Shown: piece by piece, positions 6,943 to 22,549 of the stretch
Position numbering within the stretch: position 1 is the stretch's first letter
Layout of the letters: every line of letters begins with the position of its first letter
IMG/VR virus record: IMGVR_UViG_3300027509_000032
Coordinates: 1 to 27,601 of that record
Direction: 5' to 3' (one strand)
DNA: 27,601 nt
DNA from: a virus
Notes under the pieces: model-generated
The model's database searches: none
What the model was told of the DNA's origin: nothing
What the model saw: only the letters and a program-made list of their open reading frames with translations
Translations under genes and position numbers: made by a program

Positions 6943-7025
6943 TTTTCTATGCTGGGGCTTGGCAAGAGAACGGAAGTGCAATCCAGTTCTACGGGCTGCC
7001 TGCCCGTCCCCAGTACCAAATTTAA
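6939..7025 (+). CDS. Possible 28-residue coupled small ORF
   Basis: ATG at 6939 overlaps the preceding stop as ATGA, the classic layout of translational coupling. The frame runs 28 codons (beginning MIFYAGAWQENG, ending PARPQYQI) to TAA at 7023-7025, and overlaps the stop codon of the convergent vRNAP gene. The peptide has no recognisable motif. It could be a real micro-protein, a decayed gene end, or a chance frame inside a structured junction. Confidence 0.4.
   Translation: MIFYAGAWQENGSAIQFYGLPARPQYQI
6951..7018 (+). other. Cloverleaf-like folded element at the convergent junction
   Basis: Nested inverted repeats between the two convergent gene blocks. The outer stem is GCTGGGG (6951-6957) with CCCCAGT (7008-7014). 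Inside it are a tiny CTT-AAG stem (6958-6966), an AGAACGGA/TCCAGTTCT arm with one bulge (6967-6990), and the perfect hairpin ACGGGC-TGCCT-GCCCGT (6991-7007) stacked on the outer stem. ACCA follows at 7015-7018. The layout mimics a short tRNA, but the T-loop consensus and a U before any anticodon are missing, so I do not call a tRNA. A bidirectional terminator or an RNA end-protecting structure is more likely. No U tract follows on either strand. Confidence 0.35.
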
Positions 7026-10000
7026 TTGGTTATCATATCATAAGCCTGCATGTACGGGTTCAGCTCTGTGGCATTGAAGATCGTCCCAATGCCCAGAGCT
7101 GCATCTAGTCTGGCGCTTTCACTGGCCACCGCTACGATGTTGTCCGACAGGACACCCCCATCAATCGCATTGGCCGTCAGCAAGGCTCTGACAGGGTGTT
7201 CCCGAAGCGTCTTCATCGCGATCTTGAGGATCCTGATCTTGTAGGCCATGAACCATGTGAGGCCCAGTGCCTCCAGACCTGTCCGTACTCGACCGGGCAG
7301 AGGTGTAAAGTTCACAAACTCCTCATCAGCTTTCAAGATGGCTTCCTCATGCTTGATGCCTTCCGATTGGAAGTGATCATAGAGGATCGACTTACCCAGG
7401 AAATCACCATAGAGCATCAGCTTCGTCGAAGCATCATGGACAGCCGTTCCACGGTTCACCATCGCCTGATTGATGAAGCCCTGAGCCGGATCCGGCAGCT
7501 TCTCCATCTGGGCATTGAACCAACTCTGGATAGTCCCGGTTTCTGGATCGAGATCCAGTGCCGTCAGACCTTCCGAGATATTCTTGTAAAGACCTTCTTG
7601 GATCAACGGCCCGATACTCAGCCGGGAGTTCTCATCTTCAATATTCTTCAGCTTCTTCTGAAGCAGAGCAACTTTCGGACCATTCCCCTTGTTCATCGTG
7701 ATCTGGGTCTCCAGACGGATCACCTCTTTCTGGTTCCGAGTGGCGATGTTCAGCTCTTTCCATTTATCTTTGTATGCTCGAGCGACAACCCTTGGAGCCA
7801 CTCCGATAGAGAGCAGATGAAACACGTTGAACAAGACGTTGATCGTCGGAACGATCAGGGACCGAACCAAGATGACATCTTTCACGCCGGACACAGCTTC
7901 CTGGATTAGACCTTCGGCCTGTCCGACCAGCGGTATGGCCCGGTTCCCGAATGTAGAGACCGCGGCAATTCTCACCACGTTCTGAATGGCAGCCGGAGTC
8001 CGGGTCTTGCCGGTAAACATGTCCAGCATCGACGGATCACGGTATCCTGTGGTCAGGTTGATCATGTCGTTCCGAACCATGAACTTGTCTTTGCCAAACT
8101 TGCTTTCGATATACCTCTTTGTGCCTTCAGGAATGATAGCCCAAGAGTCCCGGTAGATCGGATCTTTCAGGTCCGGGTCAGCGATATTCGTCAGCTGATC
8201 AGCATCGCTGATCTGGGCTTTGTCAAAGACTTCATCCACGACTTCCTGGTTGTAGGCTTCAGCAAGTTTCTCTTCGACCTGACGCCCTTCCCATGCACCG
8301 ATCGACAGGAACACATTGCTCCGACGATCCATGTGCTTGCTCTGGATATCCGGCCGAATGGCCCTCTCATAATATTTGTCTTCGCCTTTCTCATCCTTCA
8401 CAGGAATGACCATATCCCCCTGCTCGGTCAGCTTTCCTTTCGACTGGAGAGCCTTGATGATCTTGGCATCATTCCCGGTAATCACCCCGGCCGTATTGAG
8501 ATTTCCAACGGACAAACCAGTAGTGGCATCCACTCCCCGATAGGAGTTGTGAACCTGCTGGATAGCCCCCTGAGAATAGTTCCCCTGGATCTTCGTGGTA
8601 GACTTGTAGATGCCCATTTTGGTTTTCGAATATCCGTCATGGGCCTTGTAGTTTCCGACCCGGACATACCCTTTTGCAATCAAAGAAGCTTCTTCCTTGT
8701 CGGGCCGGATTTCAATCGAGACACTCTTTTCAGACTCGTCGGGGATGTACCCTTTGAGGCCATTCATCCGAGCGATCTTGCTGGCAGCCTTCTGCTCTTC
8801 TGCAACATTGAGAGACTTCAGATAGACCAGCAATTTGGTCATCGCTTCAGGGTCTCTCTTGTAGACACGAGCAACTGCATCACGATCCGTCTTGGTCATC
8901 TTCTCCATCGCATAGAGAGATACCAGCCGGTCGATCAGCACCACATCACCATTCTCCTTGCCCTTGTTGATGGCCAGAGCATTCCGGTTCAGGTCCAGAG
9001 AGACCTTCCGGGTCATCATGTACTGGGCAAGATTGTCTGATTGATCCAGAACTCTCTGGAACTCTTTCCCGGACATAGATGCTGCAAGCTTCGTCTCGAC
9101 ATCTTCAATGGCGTCATCCAGCTTGGTTTTGTCCCCCATAATCTCCATGACTTGAGCGATATTGTCAGACTTTGCGTTCAGCAAGTTTTGCATGTCTGAC
9201 CGGCCCATACCCCTGTGGATGGACTTGGATTCCTTGGTCGATGGCGGCTTCTTGAAATCCTGATACAGAATGATCGGGATCTCCTCACGGAACCTCTGGC
9301 GAGTGTTCTGAACAGCATGATCCAGCCGGTTCACCAGCATGGTCATCTTCGAGTTGATATCTGTCACACCCCGAAGTTCAGCGACAGCTTCTCTGAAGGA
9401 AACCAACGAGGGAATAGCCTCTCCCTTGTGGGTCAAATCCAGGATACCATCAGCCTCTCCTTTGACTGTATCTTTGTCGAGGAACTGGAGTGTTCTGGTT
9501 GCCAGCTCAGCAGGTGCAGCGATGACTTTCCCTGCCTTGCTTCGATCTCTCAAACCGTCCAGCTTGGCGTTCTGTTGACGAGCAGTCCGGGCAGCCAGCT
9601 GGAACCCTCCAACCACCAGACCCTCGGTGAAATCGGTAATCTGACCGAGCTGTGTCAGACCTGCAATCGTGTCAGATTTGTTCTTCTCAATGATCACTTC
9701 TGCAATCTGATCGAGCAGCTCATTCTGATCTTTGCCGGTGACATCAATGGTGCCAAGAAGTTTCTTGGACATGTAGGCAAAAGCATTCTCCAGAGTGTTA
9801 TCGAAAGTTCTCTCGTCGGGGACAACCCTTTCCTGATCGGGGATTTGATCCAGAGCATACCGGAACTCGGCATTCGTCTGGGACAGAGCCAAGAGCAGAG
9901 CAATGCTGTCCGCCACACCCTGATCGTTCTGGCTCTTGCCCAGAAGCTCCATCAGGTCAGTATACTGATCCGGGTTGATGAACATGTCCGGCGTCAGGTT

Positions 10001-13000
10001 ACTCAGCACATGCTGATACACCTTGTTCAGAGCCTCAGCACCTCGGGGATCGAGCTGCATATTGATGGCCATCAGAGCATGGATCGAGCTGAACACACCT
10101 TTGTCCTGTGGCGTGAAAGAGAAACCAGCAAGCTGAAGCTTCTCGAACACGTCTTTTGCGTTCTGGGTATATCGGAGAAGCCTCTTCTGCTTGGCCTGGG
10201 TTTTCCCAAGAGTTTTCTCTCTGCCAGAGAACTTCTCTTGCAGCATCCCGATCCAACGCTGATTGAACTCTCTGGCCGTTGGCGTCAGATCCGCTGAATG
10301 CTCCAGCAGAGGAGACCTCATCTGTCTGCCATCCGAGTTGGGGTCAGCCCGATCGATCGAGTTTTCAGCAATGACCTGTGTGTTGAACAAGACATTCGAA
10401 TACATGTCAGAAGATGGAGAAACCCCCATAATTCTGCTCATCAGATCCACGGCTGCCTTGGCCATTGTCGCGAAGACATTGGACTTGGTGCTTTGGAGCT
10501 TCTTCGCCAGATGCCTGTTTGACAGAGACCATGCCATGAACTCATTCAGAGCCGCAGCCTTGGTGTTATCCGTCTGGCTCCGACGATGCTTCAGGATAGC
10601 ATTTTTCGCCTTCACGACGTTCTGGCTCTTCCCGGCATCCAGCTCCATAAACTGATCCATAAGGCTCTCCAGCCGGGTCACAGCCTCCGACACAGCCGGG
10701 TTGCTCTCACCGGCATAGTGAGCCTCTAGCGTGGCATAGGTGGCAGCGTGGATCAGCTCATGGGCCATCGTCTCGGGACTGGGCGAAACCAGGTAGATGA
10801 TATTGTTCACCGTGTCGATCTGACCTCGGGCCGAAAGCACAATCCCATCGTCACCGAAATTCTGTTTCCGGTGCTCGTTGACCTCTTCCAGAGTACCCGT
10901 CACGACAGGCATATCCGGGATGGCATTCTGGATTGCCTTCAGTGCTCGAAGAACTGTCTTGTCCTTGGAACTCTTTGCCAGCTCAGCTGCAAGAGTTTTG
11001 GCGTTGGTCGCCAGCACCTTGGATTTCTTCTCCTTCGCAGCTTTCCTCTGGGATGCCATGTTCTGATCTGTGCCGTTGGCAAGCTTCTCAGGAAGGATCT
11101 CCTCAAAGAGAGATTCATTGTCCAGATCTTCTGTGAACTCCACATCTTCAATGACCCCAGCATCTCCAGAAGATACTGGAGCAACCAGATCGTCGAAGTC
11201 TCTGTGGGGATGCACTCTGGACTGAACCAAGCGAGCAAACTCCTGATCGATCAACACATTGATCTGATCGAGAGACATGTAGGTTTCGCCATTCGGTCCT
11301 GTCCGATTGTACCCCTGCTGGCCACCGGCCATCTGATGAACGCTCAGCGGAACCTTCTTCATGACATTGCTACGGGCCAGGTTCTTCAGATGGAAAGTTT
11401 CCATCGTGGCAACCAGATCATCCATCGTGTTGATGCCGAGGTATTCCAGAGCTTTGTTTCCATCGTAGAACTTCGAACCAATGACGGAATTGAAAGCTTC
11501 TGTCAGGAGATCCTGATGCTCGGTCTGGGCCAGCTTTTCCACAGATTCCCGAATGGGTCCGATGGTATCAGCGGTCCATGTTTCGTAGACACTTTCGTTG
11601 ATCAGCGAATCGAAATCGTGGAAAGAGTTCACATCAAAGTCGACACCATCAAAGATCATGATGGCCTTTTCTGGAGCACTGTCTTTGGACATGAATCCGT
11701 TGATCATGGATGCGTCACCACCCCGGCCACCGATGATCAGATTGGCGATGATCTTCACGCCGACATTGCCGGGACGCTTCATCCGGGTCTCGGTTCTGGC
11801 CGAGTTTCTCATGTCCGTAGACAGGAAGAACTGGGTGCCTCCCTGCGGTGCAGTGAGACTGTCCACAGCACCCACTTCCAGATTTCCATCCACGGTCGAG
11901 AAGTCTTGTCCGACCTCCTGGATCTTCTTCAGGACAGCATTGTAATCTGCCTGAGTGATCGTGCTCTTTCCAGCGAACCCGGATCCTTTCTTGGCGTCGA
12001 TCAGCTTTTTGATCTCCCGCTCGAAAAGAGCCTGAGCAAACGCCGAGTGTACCTGAGAATAGAAAGTCAGAGCTTCAGACACATCGTCGATCTTTGAACC
12101 AAGCACACCACGAGAAGCCGTGACCAGAGCCTCACCGAGGCTCTTGGATACGAACTCTCTGAAGTCTTTTGTCTGGTCAGGAGTGAGACGAAAATCACCT
12201 CGCTTCTGGCCCTTCTGGAATGTGATGCCCAGAGCCGTCTCCAGATCAGACTTCAGGCTGAACGGAATATCTCCTTCTGCTTGTCCATCATACTGAAGGT
12301 TGGATCCTCCTGTGATGGCTCGATACAGGTTCGTGATCACTTCATCAGCAATGCCCTTGCCGACTCCTCTGACACCGGATCGATACACGATCTTCGTGGT
12401 CGGACCTTTGGAACTGCTTCTCGACAGAGTGACTTCTGAACCATCGGTGTTGATCTCGAAATCTGCCATCACAGACATGATCCGGCCGAGTGCCTGTTCT
12501 CGAGCAGTGGTCTGCTCATTGTTGAACAGGTCTTCACTGACCCGGTTCGAGGTTGTCTGATAGACATCTGCGTTGTTCTGGTTCTCATAGAACTCGTTGG
12601 CAGACATCTCGGTACGGCCCCAGTGCATCCCGATGCTGGCCATCGTCTTGGCTTCTTGCTTGGAGATTTTTCCCTGCCCCAGAGCCATGATGGTGTTGGC
12701 CGAACCGTTCGTCATGCCGTCCTTTTCCATGGACAGGGCAACCGGCAGAGTTGTCTCACCCCTGTTCTGAGCGACACGGAACTCAGCTACAGCCCGGATT
12801 GCTCCGAACTGCTGGGTATCGAAGCTGTCCGGCATCTTGCTCGTATCGAGAGTGCCACCCTCTATCTGGGCAACCATGGCATCGACAGCATCTCCGAACT
12901 CTTCCTGGAACTTTCCCTGGATCTCATTCAGAACATTGTCGTGGAACTTCTTCTCGATCTTGGCAATGCCCGAAGCCTGAGCAATACCCAACCAGAACCG

Positions 13001-16000
13001 ATCAACCGACATCCTGTCAGTCATATCGATTTCAGTGTGGGTCGGCGTCACCAAGAGCCGGAGGATCTTATTGTTCTGAGGGTTGATGCCCTGCATCATG
13101 TGACGGTTATTCCCGCCCACCTTGATGTGGAAATATGCAGGGATCTCGGAAACATCTTTCCCAGTCTCTTTGGCCTGATCTTCGATTAACTTAATGACCT
13201 GCATCGCCTCATCATAGTCTCGAGAAAGACCCTGGTTCTTGCCTTCTATCGACAGAGCCAAAGGATGATTTTCTGGCAGATGCTCACTCGATTCAAAACC
13301 AAGAGCATTGAGCACTTCCTGCCGAGGCATTGCCCGAATACCTTCGAGCATACCATTGGCAATTACAAACCCAACATCCTGGATATTCTTCACAGCTTTC
13401 TGCTGAGACCGTGTCAGCTTTCGGCCGGTCTTGGATTGGCGATCGTCGATGTCAGCAATCTTCTCTCCGATCGACGGAGTTTGCCGATCTTTGACACCAA
13501 AGATTTTCCGCAACATCCCTTTGGAAGCCGGATCCATTGTCTGCTGATAATCGGTAATCCCGTCGATCAGATAGACACCCGTAGTCACGAGTTTACCACC
13601 ACTGAAAATGGGGATCTGCACTTGTCTGAATGTGCTGTCCACTTCTGTCAGACCGTGGAGAACCTCTTCGATCATACCCTCCACCATGCCGTTGTAATGC
13701 ACGAGGGCAGATTTGGAGTTCTTGTCAATATTCAACAGATCCAGAACCATGGGAACCACTTCCCGGAAGATCTGGTTCTTATTAATGCCATTGAGAATGG
13801 CGTAGACCTCATCCGCAGTTTTCACATCTTCAGGAGAGATCTTCAGATTTTCACTGAGGATTTTCTCATAGGATTTAGTCTGGGTATTCTTTGCCGTTGT
13901 CATCCATTCGGCCATAGCCGTAATGGTCATATCCACGACGTTTTGATCGAACTGACCAGTTTCAGGATCGACAAAAGCCATACCGGCGAACCGAGGCATA
14001 AAGACCCTTTTCGGATCTGCCCTCAATTCCTCCAACATGGTTTTACCATCTTTGGTATATTTCACTGTATCCAGGGATTCCTGAAGCACTTCAGAAATTG
14101 GATCTCGAAGCTTTCTCACCAGCTCCAGGAAATCTGTAGATCCTTCGGTCTGTTCAAGCTCCCGCATCATGGCATCGTAATCGTCAAACCGAGCAGGATC
14201 CTTCCTTGGTTTCAAGGTCGAGCGAGCAAACTCGCTGAGCTTGGCGAAGATAGTTTTCTCTTCGACAGCTTCTTCAACCACAGCTTCGGGCTGGGTTTCA
14301 GTCTGAGCCTCAGTCTGAACTTCCGGCTCTGATTCTGGTATCGGCTTGGGATCAAGTTTCTGTGCAACTTTTTCAATAACTTTCTCAGAAGCCTCTGTTC
14401 TTTCTTTAGTTTCTTTCCGAGCACGGTCGTTGATTTCTTTCATCGCAGCCGTCTTCCGACGCAAAGCTTCCTGACGAAGCTTCACTACCGGGAACTGACC
14501 TTTGCTGTTTGGCTCAATGCCCAAGGCTTCGAGTTCTGTCAGATCAGCATCAGACAGTTTTCCAGCTTCCAACCTGCCCTGCACAGCTTTCACCAGCAGT
14601 TCATTCGAGGCGACCGAGATTGGTTTGGTCTCCAAGATTTCAGCAGCTTTCTTTGGGGCTTTCTCTGGAGCTTTCTCTGGAGCTTTCGGAGCTGGCTTCG
14701 AGCTGGGCTTGACCTGAGCTTTGTCAGCTTTACCCGGCCGATTACGGCGCTTGCTTTCCTTCCGAAGCTTGGCAACTGGATACGAACCCTTCTCGTTGGG
14801 CTGGATACCCAGAGCCTCCAGCTCCGTCAGATCGGCATCATTCAGGTTCGATGCATCAAGCTTGCCGTTGGCAGCCTTGTCCAGAAGGGCGTCAGAAGCC
14901 TCTGACAGAGGCTTCAGGTCAATCTGGGTGTCAGTGCTCGTCTCAGGGACGGTATCCGCCTGTGTGGTGCTCTCAGCTTGGTTTTCAGCTTGGTTCTCAG
15001 CCTCTGGCTTGAAACCAAACGAAGGAGCCTTTGGCACCGGGATAGACTTTGTCTCGAACATGTCGGGAAAAGCCTTGGCCAGAGCATTGTAGCTCTTCGC
15101 CACAGCGACAGCATCCGCATGGACAGCCAGACCGAACCTCACGCTCTTGGCGTTATTCTGGTGGACCTGAATCGGATCCGCCGAGTTCTCTGTCCCTGGT
15201 TCAATAAACGCTTCACCGTTGACCAGACTGCTATATTGTGCCGGTTTGCCGGTCTTTACGGACTCTTCCAGAGCAGCAACTTTATTCTGCATATGCTGGG
15301 CAAACTTCTGGAAGGAAGCCGCAACATCTTTGCCGTTGGAAATAAATCCAGAAGAGGTCTCCACTTCGAAAGACCTGTCAGGGTTCTGACCGGCTTTCAA
15401 GATCTCGGATGTGAAGTCAGCCAGAGATCTCTGGGACCGGCCTTTCTCATCGACGAAACCATCAAGGGCAATAGAGCGAGAAGTTTCAGCAACCGTGCCA
15501 CCTTTGCCTTTGGCAGGTTTTGTATAATTCGAAAGATCTTTCAGAGAAACACCAGTTTCATCCGAAACAGATATATTACTTTCAGCACGTTCATTAATTG
15601 CCTCGGAAATCTCCACGGCAGCCTGAAGGATATTCACCTGCTCAGGAGAAATGTTTTCATCGTTCTGTTCGAGGATTCTTTTGGCAAATCCAGGATTAAT
15701 GTTTCCGGGCTGATTGGCCGCTACAGTAATAGTTTTGCTGACATTCTCTGGAGTGATCTCGGTATCAGGGCCAAGGCTCTCATTCAGATCAATGCTGTTG
15801 AATTTCTCAACAACATCCAAATAAGCCTGAGTTTCTTTAAACTCTATTCCTCTGTCCCGAATTGCCTGATTACCAGAATCTTCCAGACCCATTTCTGTTT
15901 CTATGAAAGCATCCATGGCAAACATCACATCGTCATCCGTCATGGATTCGATGTCGACTTTTCCACCGTCGATACTGGAGATGATTGCCTGTGTCGTCTC

Positions 16001-17578: not shown

Positions 17579-19315
17579 TCAGCGGCGATACCCGCTGTCA
17601 TTGTCTGCTTCGATCTGCATCTTAATCTGCTGTTCCCTCAGAACCAAGCCCGGAGGAACTTCTTGATTTCGGCGTTGATACCTAATCATCTGATTTTGCA
17701 GATCTGTCAATTCTTTGACACGAGCCGCTGCTGTTGCAGTCAAACTGTCTGCGTTCGATTTCTGGCGTTTGATCCGAGAGTTTGCATCAGGATCAAGAGA
17801 TTTCAGAACCAGCTCTTCGATCTTTCCATCATTGATGGATTTTCCTGGAACCCAAGATTTGTTCTGAACTGCCTGAGCTACAGCTGCGGCTGCAACTGGG
17901 TACTCAATGCCATACTTGGAAGCCACAGACATAACTTTCTGATCGACCTCTTCCCGGCTCCATGTACCAACCCCAAACGGGAACCAGCTCTCATCAAGAC
18001 CTGTACTGTCTCGAAGAGTTTTTGCAGCATCAGGATCGTCATACTGACCAGCCAGAAACTGAAGCGAACTCCGCTCATTGACAGTAGCTTTTTCCTGTTC
18101 GACCTGAGCCAGCTCTGTTGCAGCTTGTACCTGTCGAGGATCCAACTCCTGAGTTGGGTATGCTGCTTGTCCGGTCTGAGATCCCAAGAAAACACCAAGC
18201 TGATCTTCAGCGTATTTGACCTTCCTCGGGTCGATTTCCCCGTTGGTTCGAAGAAGATTTCCCTCATAGAGGTTCTGGGCAATATCTTCTTTCGCAAGAG
18301 ACGGATCGTCATACATGGCCGAAAGACCAGCATCAATCTGCTCTCGCTGCATTTCCCACTGGTCAGCTTTCAGATCCTGTTCAGCCTTGTCAGCCTGGTT
18401 CTGATTGAAGACCGTCTGGCTCCGTCTGTCAGAGTTGGCCGCAAGCTGTTGCTGTGCTCGAGAAGCTGCTCGCCTCGAAGCATCAGTGTCCAAACCAGAC
18501 TGGGCAATGCGATCTGCAAAGTTCGCCTGAGATTCAGCTTCTTTGGCTTGGGCTTCAGCCAACCGCTTCCGAAGGTCTTCCCTCTCAGGAAATGCATCCA
18601 GCTCCAGCTGAGCTTTCTCCCGGACGATCTTGGCCTGTTCCATGTCAGCGTTGAACTTCTCCAGCTCCTGACGCTGCTGTTCAGGCAAAGCATTGAGCTG
18701 AGCTTCGCTGAATTTACCGGCCAAAGTCGAAGCCTGAGTTGCTGCATTCCGGGCAGCAACAGATGCCGCGGATTCGTCTCGGACCATCTGTTGTTTGTCA
18801 CCCTGAAATGCCAGCTCTCCAGCGGCGATTTCATTCGCTGTTCCAGCTCCAACATTCTGGGTCTCAAGCAGAGCAATCCCAGCATTGTCTTTCCGCACAG
18901 CACGATCTCGATCGGCCGCCATGTTCTGATTGGAAAACCGCTGCTGTTCGTTCAGCAATACCTGACCGGCATTGCTTGCTTCTCGCCCAGTATTCTGGAT
19001 CCGACCACCTTTCTCGGTGATCAGTTTTTGACGCAATGCGCCCATTTGTTTCTGGACAACCGGGGACAAGGTTCGACCGGCGATAGCTTCGCTGTTGAAG
19101 AAAGCATCAGCTTGCTCTTCGGTTTTGATCTTGTTCATCTCTTGCAAGATGCTGCTGTCCACTTTTTCCTGCTCACCCTCCCGGTACTGATCCATGATGC
19201 CCTTGGCACTGGCCAGTCCTTTGTCGAGGTGGTTTGCAGAATCTCGGAGGATGCTTGCCGTACCTGCAAAATCAGGAGCCGTCACCCGTTGAAATTGAAG
19301 TCTTCCGCCAGCCAT
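17579..19315 (-). CDS. Internal virion protein, Gln/Ala-rich coiled coil (N4 gp51 position)
   Basis: A 578-residue hydrophilic, largely helical protein, rich in Gln, Ala, Glu and Arg. The stretch of about residues 190-330 (for example EAQAKEAESQANFAD) looks like a long coiled coil. There is no signal peptide and no catalytic motif. Proteins of this kind beside the giant internal protein of podophages belong to the ejected inner core or fill the capsid near the portal. It lies directly upstream of the vRNAP gene in the late transcript, with 24 bases between them. The start MAGGRLQFQRVTAPD is typical of such internal proteins. I infer that it helps hold or eject vRNAP; function is not proven. 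Confidence 0.68.
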   Translation of the reverse strand: MAGGRLQFQRVTAPDFAGTASILRDSANHLDKGLASAKGIMDQYREGEQEKVDSSILQEMNKIKTEEQADAFFNSEAIAGRTLSPVVQKQMGALRQKLITEKGGRIQNTGREASNAGQVLLNEQQRFSNQNMAADRDRAVRKDNAGIALLETQNVGAGTANEIAAGELAFQGDKQQMVRDESAASVAARNAATQASTLAGKFSEAQLNALPEQQRQELEKFNADMEQAKIVREKAQLELDAFPEREDLRKRLAEAQAKEAESQANFADRIAQSGLDTDASRRAASRAQQQLAANSDRRSQTVFNQNQADKAEQDLKADQWEMQREQIDAGLSAMYDDPSLAKEDIAQNLYEGNLLRTNGEIDPRKVKYAEDQLGVFLGSQTGQAAYPTQELDPRQVQAATELAQVEQEKATVNERSSLQFLAGQYDDPDAAKTLRDSTGLDESWFPFGVGTWSREEVDQKVMSVASKYGIEYPVAAAAVAQAVQNKSWVPGKSINDGKIEELVLKSLDPDANSRIKRQKSNADSLTATAAARVKELTDLQNQMIRYQRRNQEVPPGLVLREQQIKMQIEADNDSGYRR

Positions 19316-19368: not shown

Positions 19369-19839
19369 TTAGAGCTTGTTCTTGTCGATGTAGGCGTCTG
19401 CTTCACCAGATCGTCCCTCGGTGGCATACCGGGAACGGATCCGATCTTCCAGTGCCGTGTTGTAGCTCTTGGTGCTGGCTTTCAGATTGGTCTCGAAAGC
19501 TTTCTTCTGAAGGCCATAAGACTTCTTTGCCAGCTTGTTGGCATTGTAGGAGTTCCACAGGCTGCCGACGGTCTGAAGAGCGCCCAGACCCATGCTGGCA
19601 TAGCCCAGATTGTTGGCAGTTCCCTGAGACATCCCGCTGATGCCGAAGCCTGAGCCGGTTCCTCCAGGATCTGCACCTGGGAACTGATACTTTCCATTCA
19701 GAGCACCCTGCAAAGCAGGCACAGGATTACTGGCTACAGGGGCAAAGCCTCCAGAACCTTGAGCCTGAATTGCTGCACCTGCAACCGAACCCATTGGACC
19801 CATGGTGACTTGAGGATCCCATCCATTATATCCGTTCAT
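19369..19839 (-). CDS. Small internal virion protein (N4 gp52 position)
   Basis: A 156-residue protein with a Gly/Ala/Pro-rich, probably disordered first half and a helical second half. The segment NANKLAKKSYGLQKKAFETN (about residues 104-123), followed by KSYNTALEDRIRSRYA, matches a pattern often seen in small podophage proteins encoded just before the internal core proteins: aromatic and Lys-rich helix, then YNT-x-LEDR. TAGGAG precedes its ATG. It probably ends inside the capsid or at the tail hub. No enzyme motif is present, and the family assignment rests on pattern and position. Confidence 0.62.
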   Translation of the reverse strand: MNGYNGWDPQVTMGPMGSVAGAAIQAQGSGGFAPVASNPVPALQGALNGKYQFPGADPGGTGSGFGISGMSQGTANNLGYASMGLGALQTVGSLWNSYNANKLAKKSYGLQKKAFETNLKASTKSYNTALEDRIRSRYATEGRSGEADAYIDKNKL

Positions 19840-19858: not shown

Positions 19859-22549
19859 TCATTTGTACGGTAGCTGAAGTGTTAAATTCACGTAGTTCTG
19901 TACCATAGACAATGTGACTTCAGCAATGTCACTGCCTACCATAGTTGTCCGGTGAATAAAGTCATCAGCACTTTCTGGAACAAAAGTTGTAGCTCCGCCC
20001 AAACCCTGACCTCGGCTCTCATCAATCAGCTGCATCGGGCTGAACGACAGGTTGCCATTATTCAAGCCCAACTCTTCCATTTTCTGATTAATGGTGTCCA
20101 TCTGACCTTCATACTTTTCTTCCAGATCAGTAAGTTTGTCGTTCCACTTCTCAGCGTTGTAATCGTTGAAAGCGTTCAGCGTCACATTGGTCACGGCCAA
20201 GACATTGGTGACGGTCATCAGATCACCGAAGTTCGCACCCGACAGACCGCCTGTCACAGCGATGCTGAGCACGGTTCCGACGATGGCACCAATCCGGTCT
20301 CCGAGCAGCTGCTTCGAAGCGTATGTGATCACTTGGGTCAAAACCAATGCAGCAACAGCATTAGCCACAGCTCCAGCAATGACCGCAGCGGTGCCTGAGA
20401 GGCCCAGAGACGCCCCTACAGCTGCATTGGCCCCGAGTATGCCCACCGTGCCTGCACCTGCTGTAGCGACCGTTACAGCGACGATCAGGATGACAACCAG
20501 GATCTTGAAACCAAGGGTCTCATACCACTTCTGTTTCGTGACCTCATAGGTGTTGATCACCATGTAGGCATTCGCCGTGGTCATCTGGGTCGCATCGACG
20601 AGACCCATGTTCCTGACTGTGGGATTATGGAGAGGGATCAGGAAGCCTGACTCTTCAGAATCGTCCAGAGCATCATGCCCACTTATATTTACCGATTTAC
20701 CTTTGTAGATAAGGTTCTTGTGCTGCAAACCATAGATAGTCATCTTCTTGTGAGAAGTGTCACTTGTCTGGTAGTACATCACGATAGTTTCCAGAGAAAT
20801 CTTCTCTGAACTGAATCCGTTATTGCTCTGCCACTCGAGCGTTCCGCCCTTTTCGATCTTTACATTTCCGCCATTGGCTCCAGCCTCATAGAGACCGGCG
20901 ATCACTTCGACATCAATGTTGAACCAAGAAATGCGATTATCAAAATCGTCGAGAGACACATGATCGGTATTGATCCTGATCGTGGTGTATTCAGGAATAT
21001 CGATCGTTGGAACATCAGGTCTTGGCGTGTTGAACAGGGGATCCGTATTGTCCCCTTGAGCTGTGACCCAATTTTCATACGCGGCAATCGCTATGTCATA
21101 TGCATCAATGTTTGCTTGCAGGTTTGTGATGCTCGATCCAGTGGTATTCTGGAAAGGAACCAAACCTTCAAAGAAGTTGAACAGATATTTCTTACTAGAG
21201 TTCTCTGCAACATTAAGAGGAACTCCAAAAAAGAGATACGCATAATCAATGTCGCCCAGATCCGGGTTATCTTCCAGACTGTCGATGGTGCTGTTGAATT
21301 TGTTTTTCCCAAAGGCTTTCCGATATGCTGTCTTGCTCGACGCATAGAGACCGTTGCCGGTCACAGAATCAAATATCTCATCTTTGATTGACTTATTGCT
21401 CAAACGAATCGGAATGAATGGAAAGAACTCTGGAAGAGCCGCAGGTGCAGTTGTCACCAGACCATTCAGGTTGGCATTGGTTCCACCGATCTTGTAGACA
21501 AACATCTGATACCCACCAACCACCTTGCTGGTGGTGGTGATCTGCTCTTCTATCGAGTAATCATATGCAGGTTCCAGAACTTCTGTCTCAACAGTTGTCG
21601 TGACAGTTTCTGTGACACCCCCACCCATATCATTGGTAGTAGTGGTTACAACGGTGTCGACACGGATTGCTCTTTTCTCACGGATTGTGAAAATGAAATC
21701 AGATTCAGTGGTCTCAACAGTATCTCCGTTTGAACCATTATACTCATGTTTCAAATAAGTAGTATCTTCATTCTGAAAAGTCTCAGTCGTGAATGTGCTC
21801 GAGCTTGTTGAAGTCGGAGGAGTCGCATCAGAGTAAGTTCTATCTTCTGTGGTCTTCTCTTCAAGATCTACAAAAGTCTGAAGAGGCGTTCCTACAGTAT
21901 CCAGATTGTCGAAGGTGTATGAACCAGTGGAAGGAACCAGAGAGAAATCTATGATGTCCATTCCGCTGTCGATCTCAGTCCATGGCCCTGCTTCAGTCGG
22001 GAGAGACTGATAAAAATATGCGATGATATACTGAGCTGCTGGATCGTAATCTCCAGCAGGAACATATTCGACAGAGGTATCTTCATATTGGATTACAACT
22101 TCATGATCTTCGGCATCATAGTCTGCTACCCAATCAGTGTTGTAGAGAGCTGGAAAATTATCCAGGATGTGTTTCTCAGCCACCCATGAGAAATCACCAT
22201 CTTGAAGAATAGCCGATTGCATCTGAGTGACCAGACCGGCAGGTGTTGCCGGGACAGGGATCTCAGCTTTTACCGTTTCCAGATCAAGCTTCTGCTGAGA
22301 AGCAATGCTGGAAACTGGCAAGCCTTCATAAGAAGTTCTGACGGCCCAGTTGTAGAACTGTCTTTGTTTGATGCCGGGGCCGGTCAGATAGTTGTTGGTC
22401 AGGGTCTCTCCAAGGTAGGAACCATCATCAGCAATGATGGCTCCGAACACAGAACTCTTCAGAAAATTCGGACGTTGATCGACCGGCCCTGCCAAGTTGT
22501 AAAGCGTGGAGGAAACGGTGATCGTCTTCTTTCTCGAAAAGAGTCCCAT
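19859..22549 (-). CDS. Large virion protein, tail/connector candidate (N4 gp52-gp53 region)
   Basis: An 896-residue structural protein. The N-terminus (MGLFSRKKTITVSSTLYNLAG) and the next 200 residues look like a folded beta domain. Residues about 215-345 are extremely rich in Thr, Glu and Ser (TVVTTTTNDMGGGVTETVTT), as in surface-exposed beta structures. Residues about 683-765 hold a long hydrophobic Ala/Gly/Val stretch (starting ILVVILIVAVTVATAGAG) able to form two or more membrane helices. The end is hydrophilic. A virion protein with internal membrane segments might insert into the host envelope during DNA entry. It sits between the internal proteins and the DTR-repeat protein, in the order of N4 late genes. 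The exact N4 counterpart is uncertain. Confidence 0.65.
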   Translation of the reverse strand: MGLFSRKKTITVSSTLYNLAGPVDQRPNFLKSSVFGAIIADDGSYLGETLTNNYLTGPGIKQRQFYNWAVRTSYEGLPVSSIASQQKLDLETVKAEIPVPATPAGLVTQMQSAILQDGDFSWVAEKHILDNFPALYNTDWVADYDAEDHEVVIQYEDTSVEYVPAGDYDPAAQYIIAYFYQSLPTEAGPWTEIDSGMDIIDFSLVPSTGSYTFDNLDTVGTPLQTFVDLEEKTTEDRTYSDATPPTSTSSSTFTTETFQNEDTTYLKHEYNGSNGDTVETTESDFIFTIREKRAIRVDTVVTTTTNDMGGGVTETVTTTVETEVLEPAYDYSIEEQITTTSKVVGGYQMFVYKIGGTNANLNGLVTTAPAALPEFFPFIPIRLSNKSIKDEIFDSVTGNGLYASSKTAYRKAFGKNKFNSTIDSLEDNPDLGDIDYAYLFFGVPLNVAENSSKKYLFNFFEGLVPFQNTTGSSITNLQANIDAYDIAIAAYENWVTAQGDNTDPLFNTPRPDVPTIDIPEYTTIRINTDHVSLDDFDNRISWFNIDVEVIAGLYEAGANGGNVKIEKGGTLEWQSNNGFSSEKISLETIVMYYQTSDTSHKKMTIYGLQHKNLIYKGKSVNISGHDALDDSEESGFLIPLHNPTVRNMGLVDATQMTTANAYMVINTYEVTKQKWYETLGFKILVVILIVAVTVATAGAGTVGILGANAAVGASLGLSGTAAVIAGAVANAVAALVLTQVITYASKQLLGDRIGAIVGTVLSIAVTGGLSGANFGDLMTVTNVLAVTNVTLNAFNDYNAEKWNDKLTDLEEKYEGQMDTINQKMEELGLNNGNLSFSPMQLIDESRGQGLGGATTFVPESADDFIHRTTMVGSDIAEVTLSMVQNYVNLTLQLPYK

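Follow-up and report, generated by a model that had tools for sequence, protein, structure and literature searches.

The virion RNA polymerase (vRNAP) encoded in the window, that is, the whole stretch of 27,601 nucleotides analysed here (IMG/VR record IMGVR_UViG_3300027509_000032), carries behind its polymerase core a domain, C1, with the conserved motifs and the predicted fold of a zincin-like metallopeptidase. With slightly better than even confidence, we propose that C1 would be ejected with the polymerase, would be catalytically active after ejection and would cut protein in trans. The vRNAP is among the rare enzymes that are shot into the cell ahead of the phage DNA, and an active protease in its C-terminal part would give this part a concrete function and provide a testable post-entry step.

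The vRNAP and its domain layout

The vRNAP gene, P0001, was identified by a whole-protein family match (residues 16-3504 to phrog_2206, virion RNA polymerase, E=0), by matches to Pfam vRNAP_dom and vRNAP_dom_2, and by a match to the N4 vRNAP in the PDB (E=1e-214). The features of the protein are listed in Table 1. The match to the mini-vRNAP structures begins at residue 1152, and the PF21894 match was just under the cut-off. By the PF21769 match, the polymerase core extends to about residue 2076, some 105 residues ahead of the zincin core, and the first-pass annotation was thus correct in locating the zincin motif just after the polymerase core.

Unlike in N4, the polymerase of this phage is preceded by a repeat region. 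The two copies, at residues 881-937 and 977-1033 (coordinates counted by hand), have the stretch DADLTELEALGI in common, and in related phages this region is the site of a zincin or of other inserted sequence. The genes neighbouring that of the vRNAP (17579-19315, 19369-19839 and 19859-22549, all on the minus strand) match the unnamed families phrog_14527, phrog_2646 and phrog_2220, respectively; judged by their position, some of the three may encode companion ejection proteins.

Table 1. Coordinates of the vRNAP gene and of its domains and motifs in the window.
Feature	Coordinates	Strand	Remarks
vRNAP gene P0001	7022..17554	minus	3510 aa; Schitoviridae-type
Pre-polymerase region, residues 881-1033	14456..14914	minus	repeat unit of about 57 aa, present twice
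RNA polymerase core, about residues 1152-2076	11327..14101	minus	PF21867, PF21894, PF21769; mini-vRNAP structures
Polymerase-zincin linker, residues 2077-2180	11015..11326	minus	55-protein alignment: no column conserved to 95% or more within residues 2090-2175
Zincin core of C1 domain, residues 2181-2345	10520..11014	minus	AlphaFold2 core; N4 C1 counterpart
E2261, Glu opening the HExxH helix	10772..10774	minus	invariant in 88 sequences; 53/55, 2 gaps
HELIH, residues 2265-2269	10748..10762	minus	predicted zinc ligands H2265 and H2269; predicted catalytic base E2266
NEFMAW, residues 2337-2342	10529..10546	minus	E2338 (10541-10543), predicted third zinc ligand
C1 C-terminal helical part, residues 2346-2395	10370..10519	minus	retained in L088 lineage
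C2 domain, residues 2396-3510	7025..10369	minus	family alignments; N4 C2 per PMC12633501

The metal-site motif and the predicted fold

HELIH is the only HExxH in the 3510 residues of P0001, where about 0.035 occurrences were expected from the amino-acid composition. The first-pass annotation had placed this motif at residues 2265-2269, which was confirmed, and E2338 sits in LNEFMAW. The hydrophobic stretch NNIIYLVSP that it had noted ahead of HELIH was also borne out and contains a predicted strand. The interval that it had assigned to the motif, 10540-10765, does span the stretch from the motif to the distal Glu, but the domain core is larger, at about 10520-11014.

AlphaFold2 gave a pLDDT of 86.6 for a 276-aa region, and a pLDDT of 95.8 and a pTM of 0.90 for the 176-aa core (residues 2175-2350). 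In the core model, HELIH is on a predicted helix (residues 86-106 of the model) and E2338 is on a separate, later long helix (residues 155-171), while predicted strands at 42-46, 70-73 and 78-82, with helices before them, lie ahead of the HExxH helix, a description that covers the order of the elements only. The C1 core is therefore confidently predicted to have a zincin-like order of sheet strands, HExxH helix and Glu helix, and at this level the structure prediction did not refute the annotated metal site. This order agrees with the description of zincins by Iyer et al. 2017 (PMC5512222), in which an HExxH helix and a Glu on a later helix are combined with a three-stranded sheet and with an N-terminal helix ahead of the HExxH helix.

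The nearest solved fold in a Foldseek search was the N4 vRNAP itself (E 3e-8). The other matches were weak (E about 0.07 or worse) and included lethal factor, selecase and IrrE, plus unrelated proteins; against viral models, Foldseek returned vRNAPs, polyvalent-protein entries and internal core proteins of phiKMV-like phages. Pfam and NCBIfam scans of the single window protein gave no peptidase match, and SprT-like profiles were matched, weakly, by 37 of the 88 relatives (E 0.003 at best). The protease domain of anthrax lethal factor (M34), to which the N4 domain was matched by Iyer et al. (PMC5512222), was a recurrent weak Foldseek match of the P0001 domain (E of about 0.07 at best, TM near 0.3, prob up to 0.84), with no Pfam ATLF match in the window.

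Comparison with N4 and the published work

The N4 vRNAP (gp50) belongs to the same family, and its C1 domain, which has the same post-polymerase position, contains HELVH at residues 2228-2232 and E2310. The comparison with N4 gp50 suggested in the first-pass annotation thus found an HExxH and a distal Glu common to both proteins (N4 structures PDB 9pnr, 9pnt and 11gp), at about 30-38% identity over the domain.

The zincin interpretation is largely right but not new. The HEXXH domain of the N4 vRNAP (aa 2130-2448) was united with zincins by Iyer et al. 2017 (PMC5512222), who made the same functional guesses, proposing autoprocessing or effector roles for it; this description was repeated in a 2021 Pectobacterium phage paper (PMC8472413). 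For P0001, it is reasonable to infer the injected protease already published for N4. The polyvalent-protein zincin-like MPTases of Iyer et al. (PMC5512222) are found in large, injected, multidomain carriers, of which the N4 vRNAP is a named case. Twelve clades were described there, and the Pfam MPTase-PolyVal family PF18818 gives no match in the window. Three results support the polyvalent-protein type of zincin outline proposed in the first-pass annotation: the HExxH and distal Glu are conserved, the fold is predicted to be zincin-like, and the domain profile matches an internal virion protein of another phage (see below).

A 2025 structure preprint remarked on the conserved HExxH in N4 C1 and left open the specific role of the large C-terminal part in early transcription (PMC12633501). 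The text of this preprint contains no mention of a zinc ion, and the N4 protein was made there in EDTA. No report of zinc, activity or substrate for any vRNAP was found in the open-access PMC literature.

Conservation of the site among vRNAPs

The main conservation set consisted of 55 non-redundant vRNAPs, namely that of the window and 54 relatives picked with a C2-domain sequence pattern. H2265, H2269 and E2338 were intact in 53 of these, and E2266 scored 54/55, a count that includes one apparently misaligned L088 residue. The two remaining vRNAPs, on separate branches, were without the whole site. Retention of the HExxH in close relatives, on which the first-pass annotation had staked its reading, therefore holds for 53/55 vRNAPs and fails for 2/55. 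In an alignment of 88 diverse C1 sequences, E2261, H2265, E2266, H2269, E2338 and L2344 were invariant columns; this alignment was pre-filtered for HExxH and includes loci seeded with ALNEFMAW, and serves as supporting evidence only. A first count of 68/68 was dropped as biased, since ALNEFMAW was among the search seeds and HExxH was required, and was replaced by the C2-selected set. A search for relatives seeded on the polymerase core alone returned none, the exact peptide patterns from one divergent sequence probably being too strict.

This conservation indicates that the HELIH/E2338 site in P0001 is more than a chance occurrence. Since the predicted base Glu is no more variable than the metal ligands, catalysis is favoured over a purely structural metal.

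Natural losses and zincins before the polymerase

The first vRNAP without the site, L088, and its relative L169 (91% identical, on a separate contig) lack the alpha/beta half of C1 that bears the HExxH. The distal Glu was lost together with this half, NEFMAW being replaced by NAFLLW (Glu to Ala), and the C-terminal helical part of C1 was retained. L088 was initially taken as a plain loss of the zincin, an interpretation that was dropped when a second HExxH was found before the polymerase. L088 and L169 bear there a different zincin, HELMH with SELFAEL, which is their sole intact one, and many relatives in their clade have both the front and the C1 zincins. The second site-less vRNAP, L146, is without the whole domain; it is represented by a single contig, with its upstream part beyond the contig end, and no named relatives lacking the domain were among the matches listed.

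In the C2 tree, L088 and L146 belong to separate major clades, with moderate supports near both tips, and the two site losses therefore look like independent events. The position of the zincin in vRNAPs is not fixed, as it can be in C1, before the polymerase, or in both, and the loss in L146 might indicate that the domain is dispensable. No earlier report of site-less vRNAPs was found in the open-access PMC literature. As far as this literature was searched, it is new that one lineage has lost the C1 active site yet keeps a different zincin before the polymerase.

The front zincin (HExxHxxD with SELFAEL), a distant relative of the C1 zincin, recurs in many related vRNAPs. Among the sequences aligned for it, one matches Pfam Peptidase_M90 (E=1e-11).

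A related zincin in internal virion proteins

The C1 domain profile matched PDB chain 9sfn_G, an internal virion protein (E=2e-7), and the sequence of the segment matched there recurs unchanged in LUZ19 gp37. In the other direction, the LUZ19 gp37 domain matched Pectobacterium vRNAPs by tblastn (E=3e-8), as well as other phage proteins, including a DarB-like protein of Serratia phage Parlo. Alignment of the vRNAP and LUZ19-type profiles with hhalign gave 96.9%. The ten loci of this kind that were read contain HExxHxxT and, further on, a short E-hydrophobic motif whose Glu was in most of them assigned by eye. The phiKMV/LUZ19 gp37 proteins have a zincin that is homologous to vRNAP C1 and contains HExxHxxT and ELVAW, but unlike the vRNAPs they carry no RNA polymerase. 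The C-terminal part of LUZ19 gp37 was also considered as a homologue of C2, and no homology was detectable on comparison.

No earlier report of a zincin in LUZ19/phiKMV gp37 was found in the open-access PMC literature, and within what was searched the homologous domain in phiKMV/LUZ19-type internal virion proteins without a polymerase is new.

Proposed function and alternatives

Being part of the polymerase polypeptide, C1 would enter the virion with it and be ejected into the host. H2265, H2269 and E2338 are the likely zinc ligands, and E2266 would be the base that activates water. The domain would work after ejection and in trans, its target being a protein of the host or a further ejected protein, and not as an enzyme of obligatory self-processing; the action in trans after ejection is close to an even call. 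The weakness of the Foldseek matches to peptidases outside N4, the lack of a Pfam peptidase match in the window and the loss of the domain in L146 speak against the proposal.

It is possible, though we think it unlikely, that the substrate of C1 is instead the vRNAP itself, cleaved once injected, at a linker for instance, so that the polymerase would be released from a membrane-bound N-terminal domain or an inhibitory C-terminal domain. Autoprocessing of polyvalent proteins was proposed by Iyer et al. 2017 (PMC5512222), and in N4 transcription is inhibited by the C-terminal domain, while the polymerase sits between flexible linkers (PMC12633501). The statement in the N4 preprint that there was "no evidence of degradation" concerns full-length protein purified in 0.5-1 mM EDTA (PMC12633501), and the intactness of this protein consequently says little on self-cleavage. 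The trans reading is preferred over obligatory self-processing for three reasons, none of them decisive. Firstly, neither of the linkers on the two sides of C1 (residues 2090-2175 and 2396-2435 of the 55-protein alignment) has a column in which conservation reaches 95%, although such linkers align poorly by nature and a loose sequence preference is possible. Secondly, the homologous domain is also present in a protein without a polymerase. Thirdly, according to Iyer et al. 2017 (PMC5512222), packaging of the N4 vRNAP takes place without processing. Low-entropy stretches at residues 2109, 2121 and 2411 were ignored, as they were probably gap artefacts of insertions found only in the window protein. 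The absence of a strongly conserved position in the flanking linkers and the EDTA in the N4 purification are likewise new as far as the literature was searched.

A degenerate or structural zincin, whose site would bind metal or merely fold, docking C2 to the polymerase with no protease activity, is improbable. N4 C1 does touch the polymerase, through a D2012-R2279 salt bridge (PMC12633501), and L088 and L169 retain just the C-terminal helical part of C1; however, the catalytic base Glu shows the same invariance as the ligands, and the vRNAPs that lost the site retain neither the base nor the ligands nor the distal Glu. An HExxH metalloenzyme other than a peptidase is very improbable. One example would be an alpha-ketoglutarate-dependent HExxH enzyme, a class brought up by a citation in the N4 preprint, which likens the HExxH to zincins and radical-SAM-linked enzymes (PMC12633501); but most of the weak fold neighbours that have an HExxH are zinc peptidases (e.g. 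lethal factor and selecase), and no positive evidence was found for the alpha-ketoglutarate-dependent class.

A broader and more doubtful reading is that phages ejecting large proteins may need a protease in the ejected cargo, the exact enzyme being exchangeable. It is suggested by the HExxHxxT zincin common to vRNAPs and phiKMV-type proteins, and by the lineage that lost the C1 active site and keeps a different zincin before the polymerase. If this were true, post-entry proteolysis would be a general and little-recognised step of podophage infection.

Further observations in related vRNAP frames

Another type of HExxH, EHELQHARQ, unlike both zincins, is present before the polymerase at about residue 116 of the L085 vRNAP frame. 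The L128 vRNAP frame is broken shortly after the HExxH by a frameshift, which may be real or a sequencing error. In the region before the polymerase, the L089 vRNAP frame contains at about residues 95-200 the sequence FYHGTNAVFSEF, which resembles an ADP-ribosyltransferase by eye only; an ART in a related vRNAP was reported by Iyer et al. 2017 (PMC5512222).
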